From the NCBI GenBank assembly GCA_903863885.1, contig CAIPEB010000011.1, positions 1 through 64,000 of the forward strand: a stretch of DNA of 64,000 nucleotides. Reading direction: 5' to 3'. How positions within the stretch are numbered: the first letter of the stretch is position 1; every line of letters begins with the position of its first letter. Below are positions 1,487 to 19,411 of the stretch, one piece after another. The notes under the pieces are model-generated. The model worked only from the letters and a program-made list of their open reading frames with translations. It searched no databases and had not been told where the DNA came from. Origin of the DNA: an uncultured Planctomycetaceae bacterium. GTDB lineage: Bacteria > Planctomycetota > Planctomycetia > Pirellulales > Pirellulaceae. Made by a program: the position numbers and the translations under genes.

Positions 1487-2815
1487 ATGGCGAGTATCTC
1501 TAAGGAACCCAACGGCCGGCGAACCATTCAATTCGTGGCGGCCGACGGCAAGCGGCGGAGCATCCGACTAGGCAAGGTTTCCCAGCGCACTGCCGAAGGC
1601 GTTAAGGTGCACGTCGAGAACCTGGCAACAGCGGCCATGACGGGACACGGCCTGCCTGATGAGACCGCCGTCTGGCTGACCGAACGCGATGCTGTGATGT
1701 TAAAAAAGCTGTCGGCCGTTGGGTTGATTCCAGAACGAGCTACGTCCGCGCTGGACAGCTTTCTGGAACGATATTTCGCCCGGCGCAACGACGTGAAGCC
1801 GACGACGCTGGGTGTCTGGGCGCAGGTTCGCCAGAGTCTAGTGGATTTCTTCGGCGCTGATCGTGATCTGCGAGACATCTCGATCGAACAGGCTGAAGAC
1901 TGGAGAGCCGAGCTGAATAGCCGGGGGCTGGCGTCCACGACTGTCGCGAAGCGTCTTGCCTTTGCCCGCCACTTTTTCGGTGTGGCTAAGCGGTACGGCC
2001 TCATCAGCGAGAACCCGTTTGACGACGTGAAGCAGGCCGGGGTGCTTCCCGAGGAGCGGGTCCGCTTCGTCACGCGTCACGAGATCGAGAAGGTCCTGAA
2101 AGCCTGCCCGGATGCCGAATGGCGACTGATCGTCGCCCTGGCTCGCTATGGCGGGCTTCGCGTGCCATCGGAGGTCCTCACTCTCAAGTTGAACGACGTG
2201 GACTGGGACCAGCGGAAGATCAAGGTCACGTCGCCCAAGACCGAACGGAAGGGCAAGCCGTCGCGGATCATCCCCCTGTATCCCGAACTGGAGCCGTATC
2301 TCCGGGATGTCCGGGATGCCGCCGCGCCGGGAACGGTTTACTTCATCACGAAGCATCGAAAGCCGGCGGGGAAGCGGGAGGACGGACGCGAGTGCAACTA
2401 TCGTCAGCGATTCGAGAAGATCATCCTGCGGGCTGGGGTGAAACCGTGGCCGAAGATCTTTCAGAACCTCCGCAGCAGCCGTGAGACGGAACTTGCGCAG
2501 ACGTACTCGATCAAGGCCGTGACGGACTGGATGGGAAACACGCCGAGCGTGGCGTTGCGGCACTACCTGCAGACGACGGACGACGATTTTCGGAGAGCGT
2601 CACGCGAATGCCGCCAACCCGGTGCAAAATCCGGTGCACGGGAAGTGCAAAACGCGGTGCAGCAACCGCGCGCGGATCTTCGCGATGTTTCGCACGCGCA
2701 GGACGCAAGTTCTGATGCTTGCGACGGTTTGCGAGATTTTGCGCAAGTTGGCTCAGGTAAACGAGTTACAACAACGGAAGTGCATGGGAATCGAACCCAC
2801 CGACCGCACGGTTAG
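1487..2815 (+). CDS. int: tyrosine recombinase / phage-type integrase
   Basis: The 442-residue site-specific recombinase has an N-terminal arm-binding part, a core-binding SAM-like domain (about residues 85-175) and a catalytic domain. Visible catalytic elements are the first Arg in GGLRVPSE (about residue 225), a Lys in the following beta strands, an atypical NLRSSRE box near residue 329 in place of the usual HxLR, and the Tyr nucleophile in LRHYLQ (about residue 360). Start ATG 1487 has an AGAGAGGT site eight bases upstream. The C-terminal 80 residues are an unconserved-looking tail, and the last 13 codons read antisense through the 3' half of selC. The integrase probably inserts its element into that tRNA gene. 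Confidence 0.93.
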   Translation: MASISKEPNGRRTIQFVAADGKRRSIRLGKVSQRTAEGVKVHVENLATAAMTGHGLPDETAVWLTERDAVMLKKLSAVGLIPERATSALDSFLERYFARRNDVKPTTLGVWAQVRQSLVDFFGADRDLRDISIEQAEDWRAELNSRGLASTTVAKRLAFARHFFGVAKRYGLISENPFDDVKQAGVLPEERVRFVTRHEIEKVLKACPDAEWRLIVALARYGGLRVPSEVLTLKLNDVDWDQRKIKVTSPKTERKGKPSRIIPLYPELEPYLRDVRDAAAPGTVYFITKHRKPAGKREDGRECNYRQRFEKIILRAGVKPWPKIFQNLRSSRETELAQTYSIKAVTDWMGNTPSVALRHYLQTTDDDFRRASRECRQPGAKSGAREVQNAVQQPRADLRDVSHAQDASSDACDGLRDFAQVGSGKRVTTTEVHGNRTHRPHG

Positions 2816-2871
2816 CGTACGGTCCGACGATTTTGAAGACCGCGGCCGCCACCAGGCAGGCACGCACTTCC
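2775..2871 (-). tRNA. selC: tRNA-Sec (anticodon UCA)
   Basis: Read on the minus strand, this folds as a bacterial selenocysteine tRNA. It has an 8-bp acceptor stem (GGAAGTGC with GCACTTCC), a D-arm with a four-base TGGT loop, an anticodon loop CTTCAAA with UCA at 2836-2834, a 9-bp variable arm (GACCGTACG with CGTGCGGTC, loop CTAAC), and a 5-bp T stem with loop TTCGATT. The 8+5 acceptor/T helix and the long variable arm are diagnostic of Sec tRNA. The CCA end is not encoded. selA, selB and a UGA-containing selenoprotein gene in the same window support function. Confidence 0.95.
2776..2815. other. probable attachment site (att) in the selC 3' half
   Basis: The overlap of the integrase 3' end with the acceptor and T-arm portion of tRNA-Sec is where a tRNA-targeting tyrosine recombinase would place its crossover. 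After integration the tRNA stays intact because the element carries a copy of the 3' half. The matching copy at the other end of the element would be left of the window. The exact core cannot be fixed from one end. Confidence 0.5.
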
Positions 2872-8728: not shown

Positions 8729-8892
8729 AATAATCGCAAATGACTACGCCGCGAAGACTTCCGTGCAATCACGGGCCATATCTTAATTGCCTTCGCATTG
8801 ATCTACAATCGGTGGTGCGGCGTTTCCGATACGATACTGACTGGCAAAGGGCGGGAATCGCTGTACCACTGGTCGTTGCGTCACGTGGGCGC

Positions 8893-8898
8893 TATAAT
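8893..8898 (+). promoter_or_regulatory. candidate -10 element for guaA
   Basis: A perfect TATAAT lies 64 bases upstream of the guaA ATG. The -35 position at 17-bp spacing is TGGTCG (poor), so this is a candidate only. The predicted transcript would begin near 8905 and run directly into the hairpin at 8919. Confidence 0.5.
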
Positions 8899-8918
8899 CG
8901 GCTCGCCATCCAGGCGTT

Positions 8919-8942
8919 CCCCGCTCGTGTGCGGGTTTTTTT
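8919..8942 (+). terminator. intrinsic-terminator-like hairpin in the guaA leader
   Basis: CCCGC (8920-8924), a TCGTGT loop, GCGGG (8931-8935) and a run of seven T residues (8936-8942) form a short intrinsic terminator. It lies between the TATAAT and the guaA start at 8962. It may attenuate guaA transcription. The stem is only 5 bp, so efficiency may be low. Confidence 0.55.
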
Positions 8943-8961
8943 GTTGGTGGTGACAGGCACT

Positions 8962-10545
8962 ATGACTGCTGAACAAACGGCCTTCCGTCCCGCGGGTCAT
9001 GTTTCGGACGAACGCATTCTGGTGCTGGATTTCGGTTCGCAGTACGCCCAACTGATTGCTCGGCGCGTTCGCGAACAGAATGTCTACTGCGAGATTGTCC
9101 GGCACAGCATCACGGCGGAGCAGGTCCGTCGTCACAATCCCCGTGGCCTGATTCTTTCCGGCGGGCCCTCCAGCGTCTACGAGGCCGGTTCGCCGAAGTG
9201 CGACCCGAAACTCTTTGAGATGGGCTTGCCCGTGCTCGGGATCTGCTACGGGATGCAGCTGGCCTGCTATTCGCTGGGCGGGCAGGTCGAGCACACGCCG
9301 GCTCGCGAGTACGGGCGTGCCCGCTGTGAGGTCTCGCACGAATCGGAACTATTCGCCGGACTGCCGACGGACATCGACGTGTGGATGAGTCATGGGGATC
9401 AGGTATCCCAGGTCCATGGCGATTTTGTGCCGTTGGCCCGCACCAATACGTGTCCGATTGCGGCTGTGCGGCACTCTCAACTGCCCGTCTACGGACTGCA
9501 GTTCCACCCGGAAGTGACCCACACGCCGCTGGGCGGGAAGATTCTGAACAACTTCCTGAGGCTGGTGTGCGGCTGTACGGGAACTTGGCATCTCGGCGAT
9601 TTCGCGCGGGAGACGGTGGAGGATGTGCGCAAGAGAGTCGGAGAGCGCGGACGCGTGATCTGCGGTCTGTCGGGGGGCGTCGATTCGGCCGTCACGGCCG
9701 CGCTGCTGTATCAGGCGATCGGCCCGCGTTTGTCGTGCATCCTCGTGGATAATGGCCTTCTGCGCAAGGACGAGAAGGAAGCGATTATTTCCGAATTCAC
9801 CAGTCACTTTCGCACGGACCTGCACGTCGTCGAGGCCGAATCGCTTTTCCTGTCCCGCCTCGATGGGATCGTGGATCCCCAGGAGAAACGCCGCCGGATC
9901 GGCCATGCGTTTATCGAGTGTTTCACGCAGGAAGCCAATCGCATCGAAGGGGCCGGCTTTCTTGCTCAGGGCACCCTGTATCCGGACGTGATCGAAAGCG
10001 GCGCCGCTCCGGACGGGCCTGCCGCCACGATCAAGTTGCACCACAACGTCGGCGGATTGCCCGACAAGCTCGGCTTTGAATTGATCGAGCCGCTTCGGGA
10101 TCTTTTTAAAGACGAGGTGCGGAAGTTGGGGGTGGAGTTGGGGCTGCCTGAAGACATTGTCTGGCGGCATCCCTTCCCCGGCCCCGGATTGGCTGTGCGG
10201 TGCCTCGGTCCTGTGAACCGTCACCGGCTGGATGTGCTCCGCGAGGCCGATGCGATTTCGGTGAGCGAGATCAAGGCAGCCGGCCTCTATCGACAGACGG
10301 CCCAGGCCTTCGCAGTGCTGCTGCCGGTATCCAGCGTCGGCGTCATGGGGGATGCCCGCACGTACGAGAACACCATCGTTCTCCGGTGCGTCAATACGGA
10401 TGACTTCATGACGGCGGATTGGACGCGGCTTCCCTATGATCTCCTGGCGCGGATCTCCACGCGGGTCATCAACGAGGTCAAGGGCGTCAATCGCGTCTGC
10501 TATGACATCAGCACGAAGCCGCCCGCGACGATTGAATGGGAATAG
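8962..10545 (+). CDS. guaA: GMP synthase (glutamine-hydrolysing)
   Basis: The 527-residue product converts XMP to GMP with ATP and glutamine. Domains in order are a class I glutamine amidotransferase ([16 protein letters not shown], catalytic Cys in GICYGMQ, His/Glu in [11 protein letters not shown]), an ATP pyrophosphatase with the SGGVDSAV P-loop, and a C-terminal dimerisation domain ending [12 protein letters not shown] 8962 was chosen because the GATase fold begins about 20 residues later; the longer frame from 8740 would add 74 unrelated residues. guaB, the preceding pathway step, is at 20825. Confidence 0.97.
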
Positions 10546-10656: not shown

Positions 10657-12330
10657 ATGAATCGCCAATACATCTATACGATCGAGAATCTCACGAAGAA
10701 GCACGGGCAGCGCGAGGTTCTCAAGAACATCTGGCTGGCTTTTTATCCGGGCGCGAAAATCGGCGTGCTGGGTCGCAACGGCGCGGGAAAGAGTTCGCTC
10801 CTGCGCATCATGGCAGGCGTCGACCGTGAATTCGACGGCGAAGCGAGGTTGACCAGCGGCTTTCGCGCGGGGTACCTGTCGCAGGAACCGCAGCTGGACC
10901 CCGACAAAAACGTCTGGGGCAACGTCGAGCAGGCCGTGGCGCCGCGACGCGCTATGCTGGATCGGTATCATGCGATCAGCGCCCAGTTGAGCGAGCCGAT
11001 GGACGACAACGCCATGCAGAAGCTCTGCGACGAGATGGCGAGACTCCAGGATCAGATCGAGGCGACGCATACCTGGGAACTTGACCGCGAAATCGAGATC
11101 GCGTTCGACGTGATGAATCTGCCGGACCGCGATGCCGAGGTGTCGACGCTGTCGGGGGGCGAGCGGCGACGCGTTGCTCTCTGCAAACTGCTGCTGGAGC
11201 GTCCGGACCTGTTGCTGCTCGACGAGCCGACGAACCACTTGGACGCCGAGGCCGTGGCCTGGCTGGAGCGGCACCTGGCGGAATATGCGGGAACCGTGGT
11301 CGCGGTAACGCACGACCGGTACTTTCTGGACAACGTGGCTCAGTGGATTCTCGAACTGGACCGCGGCCGTGGAATTCCCTGGGAGGGGAACTACTCGTCG
11401 TGGCTCGAGCAGAAACGGGACCGATTGGAACGTGAGGAAAAGCAGTCCGTCGCCCGCCGCAAAACGCTCGACCGAGAACTCGACTGGATCCGCATGGCGC
11501 CCCGCGCCAGGCAGGCAAAGAGCAAGGCCCGCATCAAGGCGTACGAACAGATGGCCTCGGAGCGGTTCGAGGAGCGGTTGGACGAGTTCGAGATTCAGAT
11601 TCCGCCCGGCAAACATCTCGGCGACCTGGTAGTCGAGGCGAGCAATCTCACCAAAGGCTTCGGGGACCGGGTGCTGATCGACTCGCTGAATTTCCGACTG
11701 CCCGCGGGAGGGATCGTCGGAGTGATCGGGCCCAACGGCGCCGGCAAGACGACGCTCTTCCGCATGCTGATCGGCCAGGAAACTCCCGATGCCGGATCGC
11801 TCCGGGTCGGTTCCTCCGTGGAGATGGGCTACGTCGATCAGAATCGCGACGCGCTGATTCCCGAGAAGACTGTATACGAAGAGATCTCGGGAGGACACGA
11901 CACGCTGCTGATGGGCGGGCGAAGCGTCAACTCGCGAGCCTATGTATCCCGCTTCAACTTTCGCGGGCCGGACCAGGAGAAGAAAGTCGGCGATCTGTCA
12001 GGCGGGGAACGCAACCGAGTTCATCTGGCCAAACTCCTGCGTCGCGGCTCGAACCTGCTGCTGCTCGACGAACCGACCAACGACCTCGATGTCGACACGC
12101 TGCGTGCGCTGGAGGAAGCCATACTCAACTACGCCGGGTGCGTGGTTGTGATCAGCCACGATCGCTGGTTCCTGGATCGCATTGCCACGCACATTCTCGC
12201 CTTCGAGGGCGAAGGCTATGTGCACTGGTGTGAAGGGAACTTCCAGTCCTACGAGCAGCAGCGTCGCGAGCGGCTCGGAATCGATGACAGCGCGCCGCAG
12301 AGGTTCCGCTACAAGCGACTGTCCCGCTGA
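10657..12330 (+). CDS. ettA: energy-dependent translational throttle protein EttA (ABC-F)
   Basis: The 557-residue soluble ABC-F protein binds the ribosomal E site and gates translation by energy state. It has two ATPase cassettes: Walker [10 protein letters not shown] and GPNGAGKTT, signatures LSGGERRR and LSGGERNR, Walker [13 protein letters not shown] and [13 protein letters not shown] linker between them contains the conserved [11 protein letters not shown]. Length and motifs match EttA rather than Uup or YheS. The start is ATG 10657 ([13 protein letters not shown]); the upstream in-frame ATG adds five residues. Confidence 0.95.
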
Positions 12331-12374
12331 TCCGGCGCGATTGGTCGACTCGAACCCGAGAGACCCGCCTCGGC

Positions 12375-12401
12375 TTGACCCGGCGCAGGGTTTGCGATAA
12401 T
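12375..12401 (+). promoter_or_regulatory. candidate promoter of the selenoprotein gene
   Basis: TTGACC (12375-12380) and GATAAT (12396-12401) are separated by 15 bases, with TG at 12393-12394 forming an extended -10. The spacing is short for sigma70. It lies about 130 bases upstream of the GTG start at 12536. Confidence 0.45.
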
Positions 12402-12535
12402 CAAGAGACAGGAAGGTCGTTCCGCCGGCCATGCACGCAGTTCCCCGCCGAACGAGTCGGCCGGCTTCGCGAGGTTCGGTATGCGAAATGAACCAGCGCG
12501 AGGCGTGAATCCGTGCGAGGTAAAGGAGCAACGCC

Positions 12536-12769
12536 GTGAACGTGTGTATTCGTTACTGCTCTGCCTGAGGGTATGAGCCCAAAGCCGTCAGTTTGGCGGC
12601 CGCTTTGCTGAACCAGTTCAAGCAGAAGATCAAGGGCCTGACTCTGCAGCCTTCCCAGGGTGGGTGTTTCGAGGTCAGCTTCGACACCGAACTGGTCTAC
12701 TCGAAACTCAAGACCGGCCAGTTCCCCGACGAAAAAGCCATCGTCAGCGAACTGAAGTCCCGCTTGTGA
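12536..12769 (+). CDS. SelW-like (SelT/SelW/SelH, Rdx family) selenoprotein, UGA = Sec at 12566-12568
   Basis: Reading through the TGA at 12566 gives a 77-residue protein with a thioredoxin-like Rdx fold. A beta strand VCIRYC leads into the redox motif C-S-A-U (Cys8, Sec11), then GYEPKA. The second half carries the family's other signature: GGCFEVSF, then LVYSKLKTGQFPDE. This matches the SelW pattern, with Sec where many homologues have Cys. The start is GTG 12536 with AAAGGAG seven bases upstream. Family length is usually 75-100, so it looks full length. Rdx proteins are thought to be thiol oxidoreductases; substrates are mostly unknown. A bacterial SECIS-like hairpin follows the UGA, and selC, selB and selA are nearby. 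The gene is on its own, convergent with efpL. Confidence 0.92.
12584..12600 (+). promoter_or_regulatory. bacterial SECIS element
   Basis: GCCGTC (12584-12589) pairs with GGCGGC (12595-12600), including one G-U pair, closing a five-base AGUUU loop whose second base is G followed by U. Flanking AAA (12581-12583) can pair with TTT (12604-12606) across a three-base bulge. Twenty-one bases separate the UGA from the apical loop. This fits the known bacterial SECIS constraints: loop 16-37 bases after the UGA and a G in the first two loop positions. It should recruit SelB. Confidence 0.8.
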
Positions 12770-12805
12770 CGCCAGTCTGCGTGCAAGTCGAGTCCGCTTG
12801 AAGCA

Positions 12806-12853
12806 GGGCCTGTTGGAGACCCGGGCCTGCTTGAGACCGGGGCCTGCTGCAGG
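12806..12853. repeat. three imperfect 17-base tandem repeats
   Basis: GGGCCTG units begin at 12806, 12823 and 12840, giving an exact 17-base period with diverging ends. They fill the gap between the convergent selenoprotein and efpL genes. They may contribute to a terminator, but no T-tract is evident. Confidence 0.6.
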
Positions 12854-12879
12854 AGTTTCTTGTTCAGGCACCGCCGGCT

Positions 12880-13443
12880 TCAGGCGCGGGACAGGAATTC
12901 CCCGGTTCTCGTATCGATCTTCACGCGTTCACCCTGGCTGATGTACTCGGGCACCTGGACGACCAGACCTGTCTGGAGAGTGGCCGGTTTGTTGCGGCCC
13001 GTGGCGGAATTGCCGCGCACGCCCGGTTCGCATTCAGTGACGGTCAGTTCGACAGCGGTCGGCAGTTGAATGCCGACGCACTCGTCGTTGTAGATCATCG
13101 CCAGCATGCCCTCGAGGTCCTCGGTAATGTAGTAGCGGGCGTCTCCCAGGTGCTCGAGGCTGACCGCCCACTCGTTGTAGTCGGTCTGATCCAGGAAGTA
13201 CATCGAGGTGGGGTCCGCGTACATGAACTTGACCGATCTGCGTCCGAAGTCGGCTTGGTCCATGCTCTCTCCGCTGCGGAGCGTGATGTCGGTCTTTTGT
13301 TTCGTCACGAGATTCCGGCCGCGGAACTTGTAGATCGTGGCTGCTCCCCGAGCCGACGGAGACTGCACATTAACGGACTCGATCAGAATGGGAGCGCCCT
13401 GGTAGTTCAGCACGGCTCCCGGCTTGATTTCTTTGGCTTGCAT
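12880..13443 (-). CDS. efpL: elongation factor P-like protein EfpL (YeiP)
   Basis: The 187-residue product has three beta-barrel domains like EF-P, which helps ribosomes through difficult peptide bonds. Two stretches mark it as the YeiP/EfpL branch: NVQSPSARGAATIYK at the domain I tip and NKPATLQTGLVVQVPEY in domain III. At the tip, Arg32 replaces the Lys that is post-translationally modified in canonical EF-P, so no EpmA-type modification is expected. It is convergent with the selenoprotein gene. Whether a canonical efp exists elsewhere cannot be seen. Confidence 0.9.
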   Translation of the reverse strand: MQAKEIKPGAVLNYQGAPILIESVNVQSPSARGAATIYKFRGRNLVTKQKTDITLRSGESMDQADFGRRSVKFMYADPTSMYFLDQTDYNEWAVSLEHLGDARYYITEDLEGMLAMIYNDECVGIQLPTAVELTVTECEPGVRGNSATGRNKPATLQTGLVVQVPEYISQGERVKIDTRTGEFLSRA

Positions 13444-13508
13444 GGGATCTCGTTCCTAGGGCTCGACGTGCCGGTCGCCAGGAAGCACGTTGAGTGAAAC
13501 ATTGCCGA

Positions 13509-13991
13509 TTACATGAACGATCCGGACTGAGGATCAATGGCGACCCCCGAACAGGCGCGGGATAACCGGTCTAAAACGATCAGCAAGGCGGCCGGATCCA
13601 GGAATTCGTCCTCTTCTTCTCCATCGGCCATTCGCTGCTCGAAATGGAAGATATCGAATCGCGCGTCGCATTGCGACAAGTGTTTCAGTTTCTCGCGATC
13701 GTCACCCGTCATGGAACTCCGGGAGACTTCCTGGGTCAGTTCGGCGACCTGTTCCGTGACCTCATCGCCCGAAACGTAGGAAATATCCATGGCTGCGAAA
13801 TCGTCAGGGGACGTGAGCGTCAGCGAATCCAGATGTCCCTTCCGGTCGGCTCGCACGTCCGTCACGTCGAACCGGTTGTCGTCCCCCACGATGGAACGCA
13901 CCGCGTCGTCAGCACTCGGCCGATCCCGTTCGCGAAACAGCACGAAGTAGGTTTCACGCCACTGGTACCTATCGTCTCCAAAGAGCGACAT
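13509..13991 (-). CDS. hypothetical acidic protein in the proC operon
   Basis: The 160-residue soluble protein starts at ATG 13991 with AAAGGTGAT upstream. It begins SLFGDDRYQWRETYFVLF, contains a central acidic beta-rich part, and a QVAELTQEV ... DIFHFEQR segment near residue 120. No catalytic motif or membrane segment is seen. Its start is four bases beyond the stop of the preceding small gene, so the two are probably translationally coupled. Function unknown. Confidence 0.75.
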   Translation of the reverse strand: MSLFGDDRYQWRETYFVLFRERDRPSADDAVRSIVGDDNRFDVTDVRADRKGHLDSLTLTSPDDFAAMDISYVSGDEVTEQVAELTQEVSRSSMTGDDREKLKHLSQCDARFDIFHFEQRMADGEEEDEFLDPAALLIVLDRLSRACSGVAIDPQSGSFM

Positions 13992-13995
13992 GCGA

Positions 13996-14229
13996 TCACC
14001 TTTGTTCCTGATCCGGGTTCTTGCCTGTCTGCCAGAATTCAATTGCTGCGAGAAGTCGGTCTCGTTCCTCGCGATTCGCCCAGACGGACTCCTCGACTTC
14101 CAGTCGGATCTCGTATTGGCCTTCGCGGACACACTCGTCATCGCCGCAGAAATGCGGCAGGTCCGAGATCCAGAGGACGCGATAAAGCGGCACGTGCTTG
14201 TCGTCGATCTTGCAGAATATCGATCCCAC
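13996..14229 (-). CDS. hypothetical 77-residue protein in the proC operon
   Basis: The start is GTG 14229, nine bases after the proC stop, with a GAGGT site five bases upstream; longer frames run back into proC. The product begins GSIFCKIDDKHVPLYRVLWI, has two Cys in DLPHFCGDDECV, and ends in a Glu/Arg-rich helix. The closely spaced Cys could bind a metal or form a disulfide, but no family is recognised. Its tight packing between proC and the next gene argues that it is real. Confidence 0.7.
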   Translation of the reverse strand: MGSIFCKIDDKHVPLYRVLWISDLPHFCGDDECVREGQYEIRLEVEESVWANREERDRLLAAIEFWQTGKNPDQEQR

Positions 14230-14237
14230 GTCTGACC

Positions 14238-15050
14238 TCACCCGTGCACGTTTCCGAGTTCTGCGGACCGGCGCGTGGCTGCCTCCACTGCGTCGATAAC
14301 CGCCGAACGCAGGCCGCATCGTTCGATGACTTGCAGGCCGGCAATGGTCGTTCCGGCCGGGCTGGTGACGCGGTCCCGCAGCACGGCCGTATGTTCGCCG
14401 GTCGACAATACCATCTGGGCGGCGCCAAGCACGGTCTGGGCCGCCAGCGCCGTTGCCACATCTCGCGGCAGGCCGACGCGAACGCCCCCGTCGCTCAACG
14501 CTTCGATGAAAGTATAGACATAGGCGGGACCCGACCCCGACAGCCCCGTTACCGCGTCCAGATGTTTCTCCTCCAGCTTCCAGGCTGAACCGACTGTGCG
14601 AAGCAGGATCTCAACCTGTCTGGAATCCTCCGCCGAGGCGCCGGGCCCAACTGCAAAGGCCGAAGCGCCGAAGCCGATCAGGCACGGAGTGTTCGGCATG
14701 ACTCGGATGACGCGTGTATGCTCGAACGACTCGGCCAGCACGCGAATCGGCACTCCAGCCAGCAACGATACGAGCAGTTTGTCCGGGCTGCCGATCGCTC
14801 CCAGATCCTCGGCCACGTTCCGGAGACTCTGCGGTTTTATTGCCAGCACGATGATGTCGGACTGGTCGACCACCGACCGATTGTCGGCGAGGAGTCGGCT
14901 CGCCGGGACGTCGTTCTGGAACTGCTCGGCTGCCGCAGGCACCGGATCGTGCCCGACAATTTCCGTAACGCCAGCTGACTTCGCGATCCCCTGAGCGAGG
15001 GCTCTCGCCATCTGGCCCGTCCCGATAAAACCGATTCGCTGGTGCGACAT
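14238..15050 (-). CDS. proC: pyrroline-5-carboxylate reductase
   Basis: The 271-residue product reduces pyrroline-5-carboxylate to proline with NAD(P)H. It has the N-terminal Rossmann motif IGFIGTGQMARAL, the IKPQ loop, RVMPNTPCLIGFGA, and the C-terminal dimerisation signature LSGSGPAYVYTFIEAL ... VTSPAGTTIAGL. The start is set at ATG 15050 (SHQRIGFIG), eight codons inside the longer frame. It is the first gene of an apparent operon with two small unknown proteins. Confidence 0.96.
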   Translation of the reverse strand: MSHQRIGFIGTGQMARALAQGIAKSAGVTEIVGHDPVPAAAEQFQNDVPASRLLADNRSVVDQSDIIVLAIKPQSLRNVAEDLGAIGSPDKLLVSLLAGVPIRVLAESFEHTRVIRVMPNTPCLIGFGASAFAVGPGASAEDSRQVEILLRTVGSAWKLEEKHLDAVTGLSGSGPAYVYTFIEALSDGGVRVGLPRDVATALAAQTVLGAAQMVLSTGEHTAVLRDRVTSPAGTTIAGLQVIERCGLRSAVIDAVEAATRRSAELGNVHG

Positions 15051-15336
15051 ATGGCTTGTGACCAAGGGAAACAAACGCGTTGCTTAAAGGTACTTATGCT
15101 ACGGCAAACAGGGGAGCGACACAACGCGGCCGCAGCTGCCGTCAGAGGCGGCGGACAGTGCTGTCAGGTCAGATTCCAGGCGTTGGGGGACCGGGGCGTT
15201 TGAGTTGCCGCCTGCGAAATTGTCCGACAATGAACTGGACCCGCTTTTGGGTTTCTGGGACACTCGCCCACCCTTCGGAGTCGAGCATTCGTATGGAAAG
15301 CGAACGCCGACTTCGCCCTACCTATGGAGGTGGATC

Positions 15337-15978: not shown

Positions 15979-17928
15979 ATGACAACGGACTTGATACTCG
16001 GAACCGCTGGGCACATCGATCACGGCAAAACCGCGCTCGTCCGCGCTCTCACGGGGGTCGACACGGATCGGCTTCCCGAGGAGAAACGCCGCGGCATCAC
16101 GATCGAGCTTGGTTTTGCCGAACTGCTGGTGGGCGATTTCCGGCTGGGAATCGTCGACGTTCCCGGGCACGAGCGGTTCGTGCGCAACATGCTCGCCGGC
16201 GCGACGGGCATGGATCTGGCCATGCTCGTGGTCGCTGCCGACGACTCGGTGAAACCCCAGACCCGCGAACACTTCGAGATCCTCCGCCTCCTCGACTTGC
16301 GGGCCGGTGTCATTGTGATCACGAAATGTGATCTTGTGGAACCCGGCTGGCTGAGTCTCGTCGAGGACGAAGTCCGCGAACTCGTTTCCGGCTCCTTCCT
16401 CAGTCAATCGCCGCTCGTTCGCACGAGCACGGTGACCGGACAGGGGCTGGATACTCTGAGGGACGAGTTGGCCAAGGCGGCTTCGCGCGCCGCTGCCAGG
16501 CGAATGTCGCTGGCCGGCCGCTCGCCGTTCCGCATGGCAATTGATCGCATGTTCACGATCGCCGGACACGGAACGGTTGTGACCGGCAGTGTGAGCAGCG
16601 GCGGGGCCTCCGTCGGCGACGAGTTGTCCATCGAGCCGGGGGGGAGGCGAGTGCGGGTGCGAGGGCTGCACAATCACGACCGGGCGGTCAACGATGTGCA
16701 CCGGGGGCAGCGGGCCGCGATCAACCTGGCCGGAGTTCATCACGATGATCTGATGCGCGGCCAGGAACTGTGTTCACCGGGCCACCTGGTGCCCAGTCGC
16801 GTTCTGACCGCAAGCCTGGCGATGCTGAACTCGATGAGCCGGCCGTGCCGCGATCGGACCCGCGTCCGGCTGCATGTCGGCACGGCGGAATTGACGGCCA
16901 CTCTGAGACTGCTGGGTCGCGATCGCCTGCAGGCCGGGGAAAACGGTCTGGCTCAGTTCTTCCTCAGCCGGCCAGCAGTCACGGTGTGGGGGCAGCCGTT
17001 TGTCGTGCGGGCGGAGTCGCCGTCGGTGACGATTGGCGGCGGAATCGTCCTCGATCCGAATGCCGAGCGCATCCGTTTGGCTGACGAGGAGACTCTGTCC
17101 TGGGTGGAACGACTGCGTTCAACCGATGAATCCGTCCGCGCCTCGGCGGCTCTGTACTTCGCGGGCCTGCGAGATTGGGTTCCGCTCGACCTGTCTCGCA
17201 CAGCAGGCATTGAAGAACCGGACCGCGTGGCTTCGGTCTTAAGGCAACAAGGCGAACTGCGGGAAATCGTCGTATCTCCGACGCGCACCTTTCGAGTTCA
17301 CCAGCGTGCATTCGAGCGGCTTTGCCAGCGATTGGAGGCTGCGCTGGGGCGATTGCACGAACGCCACCCGCTGCGGACCACGCACGACCGAATTGCCTTG
17401 TTTCAAGGCCTGAGGTACGCAGGAGAGGACGCCGTGCTGGCAGCCGCACTGCAGTTCCTGAAAAGCCAGGGGCGGGTAGTGCTGTCGGACAGAGGGGTCG
17501 CTCTGGTAGGTCACGGGCCGCGACTTTCTCAGAATGAACGGAAGTCGCTCCAGCAACTGATCGAGGTTTTCCGCAACCACGGAATCTCCACGCCGAGCGT
17601 GGAGGAGTGCCAGCGGTTGATTCCTCGAAGTCAGGCGTCGCTGCCTCAACTGCTGGCGCTGGCTGTCGAAAATCAGGATCTGGTGGAAATCGCACAAGGC
17701 TATTACCTGCATGCCGAATCCTTGCGAGCCGTGCGCGAACAATTGACCCGGCAGCTGGCTGGCAGCGAGGGGCTGACGCTGAGCCAGATTCGAGAGATGC
17801 TGAATACGACTCGAAAGTACGCTGTCCCGCTGTGTGAGTATTTCGACCGGATCGGATTCACGGAGCGCCGAGGTGATTTGCGGATCCTGAATGCCCTTTT
17901 CCGTCCTGAAGCCGGCCCTGTATCGTGA
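15979..17928 (+). CDS. selB: selenocysteine-specific elongation factor SelB
   Basis: The 649-residue product delivers Sec-tRNA to UGA codons marked by a SECIS hairpin. The N-terminal EF-Tu-like GTPase has GHIDHGKT (residues 11-18), a GITIELGFA switch I, DVPGHERF and TKCD. Two beta-barrel domains follow, then domain IV with winged helices in the last 250 residues, including a [16 protein letters not shown] wing and [13 protein letters not shown]. Length is normal. No clear Shine-Dalgarno precedes ATG 15979, and a TAGAAT hexamer sits nine bases upstream. It lies 40 bases before selA in one operon. Confidence 0.97.
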
Positions 17929-17968
17929 GACCACTCGGTACCGGCCCGCGCCACGCAAAGGTATTTCC

Positions 17969-19411
17969 ATGAACAACCCCGTACTGCGATCGATACCGTC
18001 CGTCAGTGAACTGCTGGAAAGCCCTCCGCTGCGGCGACTGGTTGACCGTGTCAGCCACAACGTCGTTGTCGGCGGCGTGCGAACGTTTCTGGACAACCTG
18101 CGCCGCGATGTGCAGTCTGCCGCCGCCGAGATGAAGATGCCGGCCGTGGGCGAACTCGCGGAGAAAATTGCGGATTGGATTGTCCACGAGGAGCGGCCCA
18201 CGCTCCGGCCGGTAATCAATGCGACCGGGATCATATTGCACACGGGTCTCGGCCGTGCGCCTCTTGCGGCCGACGCGGTCCAAGCTGTTGCGGAAGTGGC
18301 CTCCGGCTACGCGACTCTGGAAGTTGATCCGACGACCGGAGAGCGGTCGCAGCGCACGCTCGGCGTTGCCAGGCTGCTGACCGAGTTGACGCGGGCCGAA
18401 TCGGCCACCGTCGTGAACAACAATGCGGCCGCGACGCTGCTGACGCTCACGGCGGTTGCCGCAGGACGAGAGGTTATCGTTTCGCGGGGCCAGTTGATCG
18501 AAATTGGCGGAAGCTACCGTTTGCCCGATGTCATGACTGCCAGCGGCGCCAGGCTGCGCGAAGTGGGGACTACCAATAAGACTCGACTCTCCGACTACGA
18601 AGCAGCCATCAATTCCGAAACGGCTGCGATCCTGCGAGTGCACACGAGCAACTTCCGCGTCGTGGGGTTCACCGAAGAAGTGCCCATCGACGAACTCGTT
18701 CGGCTCGGCCGCCGGCGGCAACTGCCGGTGATCGATGATGTGGGGTCGGGGGCTTTGATCAGCCTCGCGGCTTACGGGATTCACGACGAACCGGTGGTTT
18801 CCGAGAGCGTTCGCTGCGGCGCGGACCTTGTCCTGTTCAGCGGCGACAAGCTTCTCGGCGGGCCCCAGTGCGGCGTCATCGTGGGCAGCCAGTCGATGGT
18901 GCAGAAAATCACCTCCCACCCGATGATGAGAGCAATGCGAGTCGACAAGTGCACGCTCGCCGCTCTGGCCGCAACGCTTCGCCTCTATCGGGATCCCCAG
19001 TCACTCGAACGGTGTGTCCCGATCTTCCAACTGCTGGCCACACCCATGGCCAACCTCAAAAACCGCGTGGAGCGACTTGCTCCGCAGATTGCCCTGTGCC
19101 CGGCCATCGCCTCGGCCGATCCGGTCGAAACGACGAGTTTCCTCGGCGGAGGTGCTGTGCCCGCCCAGGAAATCGGCACATGGGGCATCGCACTGGCTCC
19201 GAAAGCAGGGAGCGTTGCGGATCTCTCGAACCGGCTGAGGACCTGCGAACCGGCGATTTTCAGCCGAGTGCAGAAGGACCGGGTATTGCTTGACCTGCGG
19301 ACCGTGTTTCCCGCCCAGGACATTGCGCTGGTTCAAGCGATCGAGACGCTCGGGGACAAGCTGCAGCCTGCCGCCACGCCACCGGCAAAAACCGAGACGA
19401 AAGAGTCCTGA
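17969..19411 (+). CDS. selA: L-seryl-tRNA(Sec) selenium transferase
   Basis: The 480-residue PLP enzyme converts seryl-tRNA-Sec to selenocysteinyl-tRNA-Sec using selenophosphate. It has the N-terminal tRNA-binding helices (IPSVSELLESPPLRRLVD), INATGIILHTGLGRAPL, VNNNAAATLL, the GTTNKTR loop, and the PLP lysine near residue 294 in FSGDKLLGGPQCG. ATG 17969 has an AAAGGT site six bases upstream. The order selB-selA is the reverse of E. coli selAB. The selenophosphate donor gene selD is not in the window. Confidence 0.97.
   Translation: MNNPVLRSIPSVSELLESPPLRRLVDRVSHNVVVGGVRTFLDNLRRDVQSAAAEMKMPAVGELAEKIADWIVHEERPTLRPVINATGIILHTGLGRAPLAADAVQAVAEVASGYATLEVDPTTGERSQRTLGVARLLTELTRAESATVVNNNAAATLLTLTAVAAGREVIVSRGQLIEIGGSYRLPDVMTASGARLREVGTTNKTRLSDYEAAINSETAAILRVHTSNFRVVGFTEEVPIDELVRLGRRRQLPVIDDVGSGALISLAAYGIHDEPVVSESVRCGADLVLFSGDKLLGGPQCGVIVGSQSMVQKITSHPMMRAMRVDKCTLAALAATLRLYRDPQSLERCVPIFQLLATPMANLKNRVERLAPQIALCPAIASADPVETTSFLGGGAVPAQEIGTWGIALAPKAGSVADLSNRLRTCEPAIFSRVQKDRVLLDLRTVFPAQDIALVQAIETLGDKLQPAATPPAKTETKES

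Follow-up and report, generated by a model that had tools for sequence, protein, structure and literature searches.

The segment 12536-12769 of the 64,000-nucleotide stretch of DNA analysed here (hereafter, the window) encodes, with a probability that we put at about 0.97, a bacterial SelW-like selenoprotein in which selenocysteine is inserted at an in-frame UGA (position 12566) by means of a local hairpin. The computational results behind this assignment are homology to the Rdx family, conservation of the UGA codon, a hairpin with a covarying stem, the presence of the decoding genes and a SelW fold; from these, we infer that selenocysteine is actually inserted at residue 11 and that the product has a redox role. 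The features of the locus are as follows:

12536..12769, plus strand: selW-like gene of 77 codons with an in-frame UGA, Rdx family, CxxU motif (from PF10262, TIGR02174 and homologues)
12523..12529, plus strand: Shine-Dalgarno-like AAAGGAG, about 7 nt ahead of the GTG (from the sequence)
12566..12568, plus strand: recoded UGA, predicted selenocysteine, residue 11 in the motif C8-S-A-U11 (from homologous loci)
12584..12600, plus strand: predicted bacterial SECIS core hairpin, GCCGUCA-GUU-UGGCGGC, with the loop at 12591-12593 (from folding, covariation and codon constraint)

Under this scheme, ribosomes would initiate at GTG 12536, and the hairpin at 12584-12600 would recruit SelB-GTP-Sec-tRNA-Sec to UGA 12566, where selenocysteine would be inserted instead of termination; translation would then stop at a second UGA, yielding a 77-residue product that is expected to fold into a small thioredoxin-like domain, with Cys8-x-x-Sec11 located after strand 1.

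Reading frame and family membership

The frame consists of the GTG at 12536, nine codons, the TGA at 12566-12568, 66 further codons and the terminal TGA at 12767-12769, and the read-through product is VNVCIRYCSAUGYEPKAVSLAAALLNQFKQKIKGLTLQPSQGGCFEVSFDTELVYSKLKTGQFPDEKAIVSELKSRL. All the elements described in the first-pass annotation were recovered, namely, the GTG with a good Shine-Dalgarno sequence (AAAGGAG, 7-nt spacer), the TGA in the context C-S-A-U-G-Y, the frame that continues past it to a clean end at 77 residues, and the segments GGCFEVSF and SKLKTGQFPDE, both downstream of the UGA. The comparison with Pfam Rdx (PF10262) that had been suggested there produced a match of 79.3 bits (cut-off 22.6; E = 2.5e-22) over residues 3-74, including the UGA. 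Because this match extends across the UGA and the NCBIfam model TIGR02174 also scores above its cut-off (68.5 versus 34.2 bits), the frame is well beyond chance expectation. Sequence matches in the PDB comprise solved bacterial SelW-family proteins, human C17orf37 and mouse SelW. The selW-like gene, with its one in-frame TGA, is the single Rdx match in the whole 11-Mb genome.

Downstream of the UGA, comparison of homologues yielded dN of about 0.23-0.43 versus dS of about 0.8-1.0 or saturated; therefore, this part of the gene is translated and subject to purifying selection. Rdx similarity flanks the UGA, and the frames of the relatives continue without downstream decay, the opposite of the two outcomes that had been named beforehand as speaking against selenocysteine. 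As also anticipated, gene callers that read UGA exclusively as a stop cannot detect this gene; the stretch is covered by a minus-strand ORF (12401-12871, 156 aa) for which no family match was found, so that the annotation is corrected here in favor of the UGA-containing selW-like gene.

Decoding genes and genomic neighbourhood

Three genes of the selenocysteine-decoding machinery are located in the window (these, like the SECIS hairpin, were not mentioned in the first-pass annotation), and one more is on another contig of the same genome:

2775..2871, minus strand: tRNA-Sec (selC), anticodon UCA (ARAGORN; Rfam RF01852, 69.9 bits, gathering score 47)
15979..17928, plus strand: selB, Sec-specific elongation factor (TIGR00475, 346 bits, cut-off 242; SelB-wing_3)
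17891..19411, plus strand: selA, L-seryl-tRNA(Sec) selenium transferase (TIGR00474, 548 bits, cut-off 267.9; PF03841)
L032:1478-2532 (contig C664): selD, with an in-frame TGA (...YASCAGUAGKLPVG)

Thus, selA, selB, selC and selD, the genes by which the capacity for bacterial selenoprotein synthesis is judged, are all present in the genome; the start of the selA ORF overlaps the end of selB. From its sequence, SelD itself is predicted to be a selenoprotein (CAGUAGK). After the selD TGA, a possible CCCC-GUU-GGGG hairpin, with a GUU loop as in selW, can be discerned by eye, but RNAfold favors another structure.

In a set of 199 genomes from the same family, SelB scoring over the cut-off was detected in 66 of the 74 genomes with a TGA-type SelW versus 26 of the 125 without one (odds ratio 31, p 4e-22; such p-values overstate independence because the counted homologues are related to one another). 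Among the eight SelW-TGA genomes without SelB over the cut-off, four (G038, G152, G180 and G023) contain SelB or SelB-like fragments; the G002 contig stops about 2.8 kb past selW, where relatives from the same genus carry selB; and G062, G088 and G094 are 72-84% complete. These cases probably reflect assembly gaps rather than counter-examples.

In the window, selB-selA follow the selW-like gene on the same strand at a distance of 3.2 kb, with minus-strand genes (12880-15074) located in between. Judging from coordinates, SelW and selB are no more than 7 kb apart on one contig in about 14 relatives, the SelW gene usually being upstream and on the same strand, as in the window. SelB-dependent decoding competes with termination, and this competition, along with the early position of the UGA (10 codons from the start) and the proximity to selB-selA here and to selB in several relatives, would be compatible with regulatory recoding, whereby translation would mainly yield a 10-residue peptide and Sec insertion at the UGA would serve chiefly as a selenium sensor, the full-length protein being made only when selenium is ample. 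We consider this scenario very unlikely, given that purifying selection acts on the entire protein, C-terminal part included, and that the Rdx fold is retained; moreover, a simple cis effect on selB is unlikely because of the intervening minus-strand genes. Production of the full-length selenoprotein is by far the preferred reading.

Other neighbours of the selW-like gene are guaA and ettA upstream and, downstream on the other strand, the genes for EF-P and pyrroline-5-carboxylate reductase; the genes around the locus point to no substrate for the SelW-like product. No relative turned up in phage records. The GMP synthase ORF (8740-10545) starts about 90 codons ahead of the conserved domain (the profile match begins at residue 93), and the true start of this gene probably lies downstream of the ORF start. 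The 3' end of tRNA-Sec (2775-2871, minus strand) is overlapped by a tyrosine-recombinase-like ORF (1487-2815, plus strand, PF00589), an arrangement resembling that of an element integrated at tRNA-Sec. A search of the genome for another copy of this 3' end, as an att site, found none; window position 1 is also the start of the contig.

Conservation of the UGA codon and the downstream hairpin

The codon aligned to residue 11 is TGA in 84 of the 86 homologous loci, TGC (Cys) in one and GGT (Gly) in one; the loci were drawn from two overlapping collections, with some records included twice, and the distinct TGA-containing downstream segments number 70. The preponderance of TGA is not built into the sample because the patterns used to search for homologues left out the UGA codon. 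By record title, the loci come mainly from Planctomycetota, and also from Verrucomicrobiota, Poribacteria, Gemmatimonadota and Gammaproteobacteria; judged by these relatives, the genome that contains the window would be planctomycete as well. The in-frame UGA aligns with Cys or Sec in homologues, the pattern sought in bacterial selenoproteins; a search for Cys-containing orthologues, proposed earlier as a check, identified the single TGC locus, and solved Rdx homologues also contain Cys.

The predicted SECIS has a 3-nt GUU loop located 22 nt from the UGA and a 7-bp stem, with a free energy of -9.3 kcal/mol when folded alone. The published model of the bacterial SECIS specifies a loop of 3-9 nt, a stem of 4-16 bp, a G as the first or second loop nucleotide, a spacing of 16-37 nt and a minimum free energy at or below -7.5 (PMC13188914), and the hairpin falls within all these limits. 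In an alignment of 44 distinct sequences, pairing in the stem amounts to 89%, and the covariation score is 0.242, compared to 0.137 for shuffled alignments, 0 of 500 of which reached the observed score; the covariation is lost when the partners are slid, and RNAalifold recovered the inner five pairs unaided. The pair 21-33, which links the third base of codon 17 to that of codon 21, both mostly synonymous sites, is formed in 67 of 70 sequences (shuffled mean, 52) and occurs as CG, UA, GU, UG, AU and GC among the relatives. Codon usage is constrained as well: AGT encodes Ser19, a contributor to the loop, in 65 of 67 sequences (7.5% elsewhere in the gene), and every sequence has TTG or CTG for Leu20. 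The case for the SECIS rests on covariation and codon constraint because the excess of folding energy over synonymous shuffles, a weak discriminator, is modest (z of about -1.0 in the window and -0.55 on average). Of the seven stem pairs, the lowest two are frequently unpaired among relatives, and an Rfam search of 12300-13500 yielded no SECIS match at the selW-like gene, only a sub-threshold snoRNA match elsewhere.

The TGC at this codon in one homologue and the status of UGA as a usual stop in the window could suggest a pseudogene, that is, a former Cys-coding SelW inactivated by a nonsense mutation of TGC or TGT to TGA. Even less probable than regulatory recoding, this possibility was rejected: the identical TGA is conserved across several phyla, and the frame, length and purifying selection downstream are maintained, as is the covariation in the hairpin. 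The frame would equally be open across a UGA if the whole genome read UGA as another amino acid (Trp or Gly) or suppressed it generally; this is the least probable alternative, rejected because TGA terminates 10 of the 15 family-matched genes in the window, next to a true tRNA-Sec, selA and selB. Since UGA also ends neighbouring genes, recoding is local. Selenocysteine, the assignment made in the first-pass annotation, is the reading supported by the Rdx similarity before and after the UGA, the hairpin, tRNA-Sec, selB and selA in the window, SelD in the genome and the normal use of UGA as a stop by neighbouring genes.

Three loci deviate from the common pattern. The Cys (TGC) SelW (L029, genome G160) has the same selB-linked position, and its genome retains SelB; this locus apparently represents a recent Sec-to-Cys change. 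The locus with Gly (GGT) at the Sec position (L071:50-283, Gemmataceae) comes from a genome that still has a full SelB, and its hairpin stem appears degraded by eye. Stem mismatches are visible by eye in both these homologues, as expected if the RNA constraint was lifted, albeit in two cases only. In a gammaproteobacterial MAG (L087:6001-6216), two in-frame TGAs result in UxxU replacing CxxU, where family relatives have one TGA; this could be either a true SelW of the UxxU type or the result of a sequencing error.

Known relatives, predicted fold and likely activity

The bacterial SELENOW-like (SelW-like) CxxU family, PF10262, is well known (PMC1088965, PMC1794560, PMC2398784, PMC13188914), and its placement in PF10262 is upheld in current reviews (PMC9312934, PMC13188914). 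The gene in the window shares with this family its length, CxxU, Rdx fold, the UGA followed by a SECIS hairpin, and the G in the apical loop; it differs in lineage alone (a Planctomycetota-type genome), the mechanism being no different. For Campylobacter jejuni SelW (CJnc60), a protein of about 80 aa with a Sec-UGA that, similarly, had been missed by annotation, UGA read-through has been demonstrated by Ribo-seq and mass spectrometry/proteomics (PMC11955535). The Campylobacter-type model NF041051 (SelTWH_Campy) is the top-scoring NCBIfam model for the product from the window, but the score of 75.1 bits is below the cut-off of 88, and therefore the gene is not a SelTWH_Campy equivalog. Planctomycetes are already known to possess Sec machinery and selenoprotein genes, with SelW not named among them in the available portion of PMC4807772. 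Because the family reviews, C. jejuni SelW and the planctomycete Sec machinery precede it, the gene is a further case of a family recognized in bacteria since about 2005, so that the find is correct but ordinary rather than surprising.

Its value lies in the clarity of the case, with the codon, the RNA hairpin, the protein fold and all the decoding genes visible together; the strong retention of Sec makes planctomycete SelW a useful gene with which to study SelB-SECIS recognition in bacteria other than E. coli, as well as the role of bacterial SelW. A broader proposition, which we regard as a long shot, is that in Planctomycetota and allied phyla, where SelW has retained Sec with almost no replacement by Cys and is often linked to selB-selA, SelW may be a core user of the Sec system or a gauge of selenium status, its SECIS having a GUU loop typical of the lineage and recognized by the SelB of that lineage.

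The AlphaFold2 model, built from 24 aligned sequences, shows a thioredoxin-like SelW fold (pLDDT 92.9) with the predicted order strand-helix-strand-strand-strand-helix (strand 2-8, helix 14-28). The C8-S-A-U11 motif is the CxxU site following strand 1 of this fold, located at the end of the strand and in the turn before helix 1. In VIA comparisons, the model matched crystal structures of bacterial SelW-family proteins with Z of 15-15.7 at about 1 Å (2ojl, Z 15.7), and thioredoxins with Z of 7-9. The Cys-type bacterial Rdx proteins 2obk, 2fa8, 2ojl, 2p0g and 3dex share the fold (Z 15-15.7, rmsd about 1) and differ by Cys at the Sec position (CxxC), as seen in the alignments for 3dex and 2fa8. 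Mammalian selenoprotein W (mouse, 2npb) shares CxxU and the thioredoxin-like fold (VIA Z 10.5, rmsd 1.8), whereas its eukaryotic SECIS is in the 3' UTR and the one in the window is inside the coding region, just past the UGA. Judging from the family, including the interaction of SelW with glutathione (PMC1088965), thiol/selenol redox chemistry is the likely activity of the product of the selW-like gene, which most likely would act as a thiol-dependent redox protein, through a Cys8-Sec11 selenenylsulfide.
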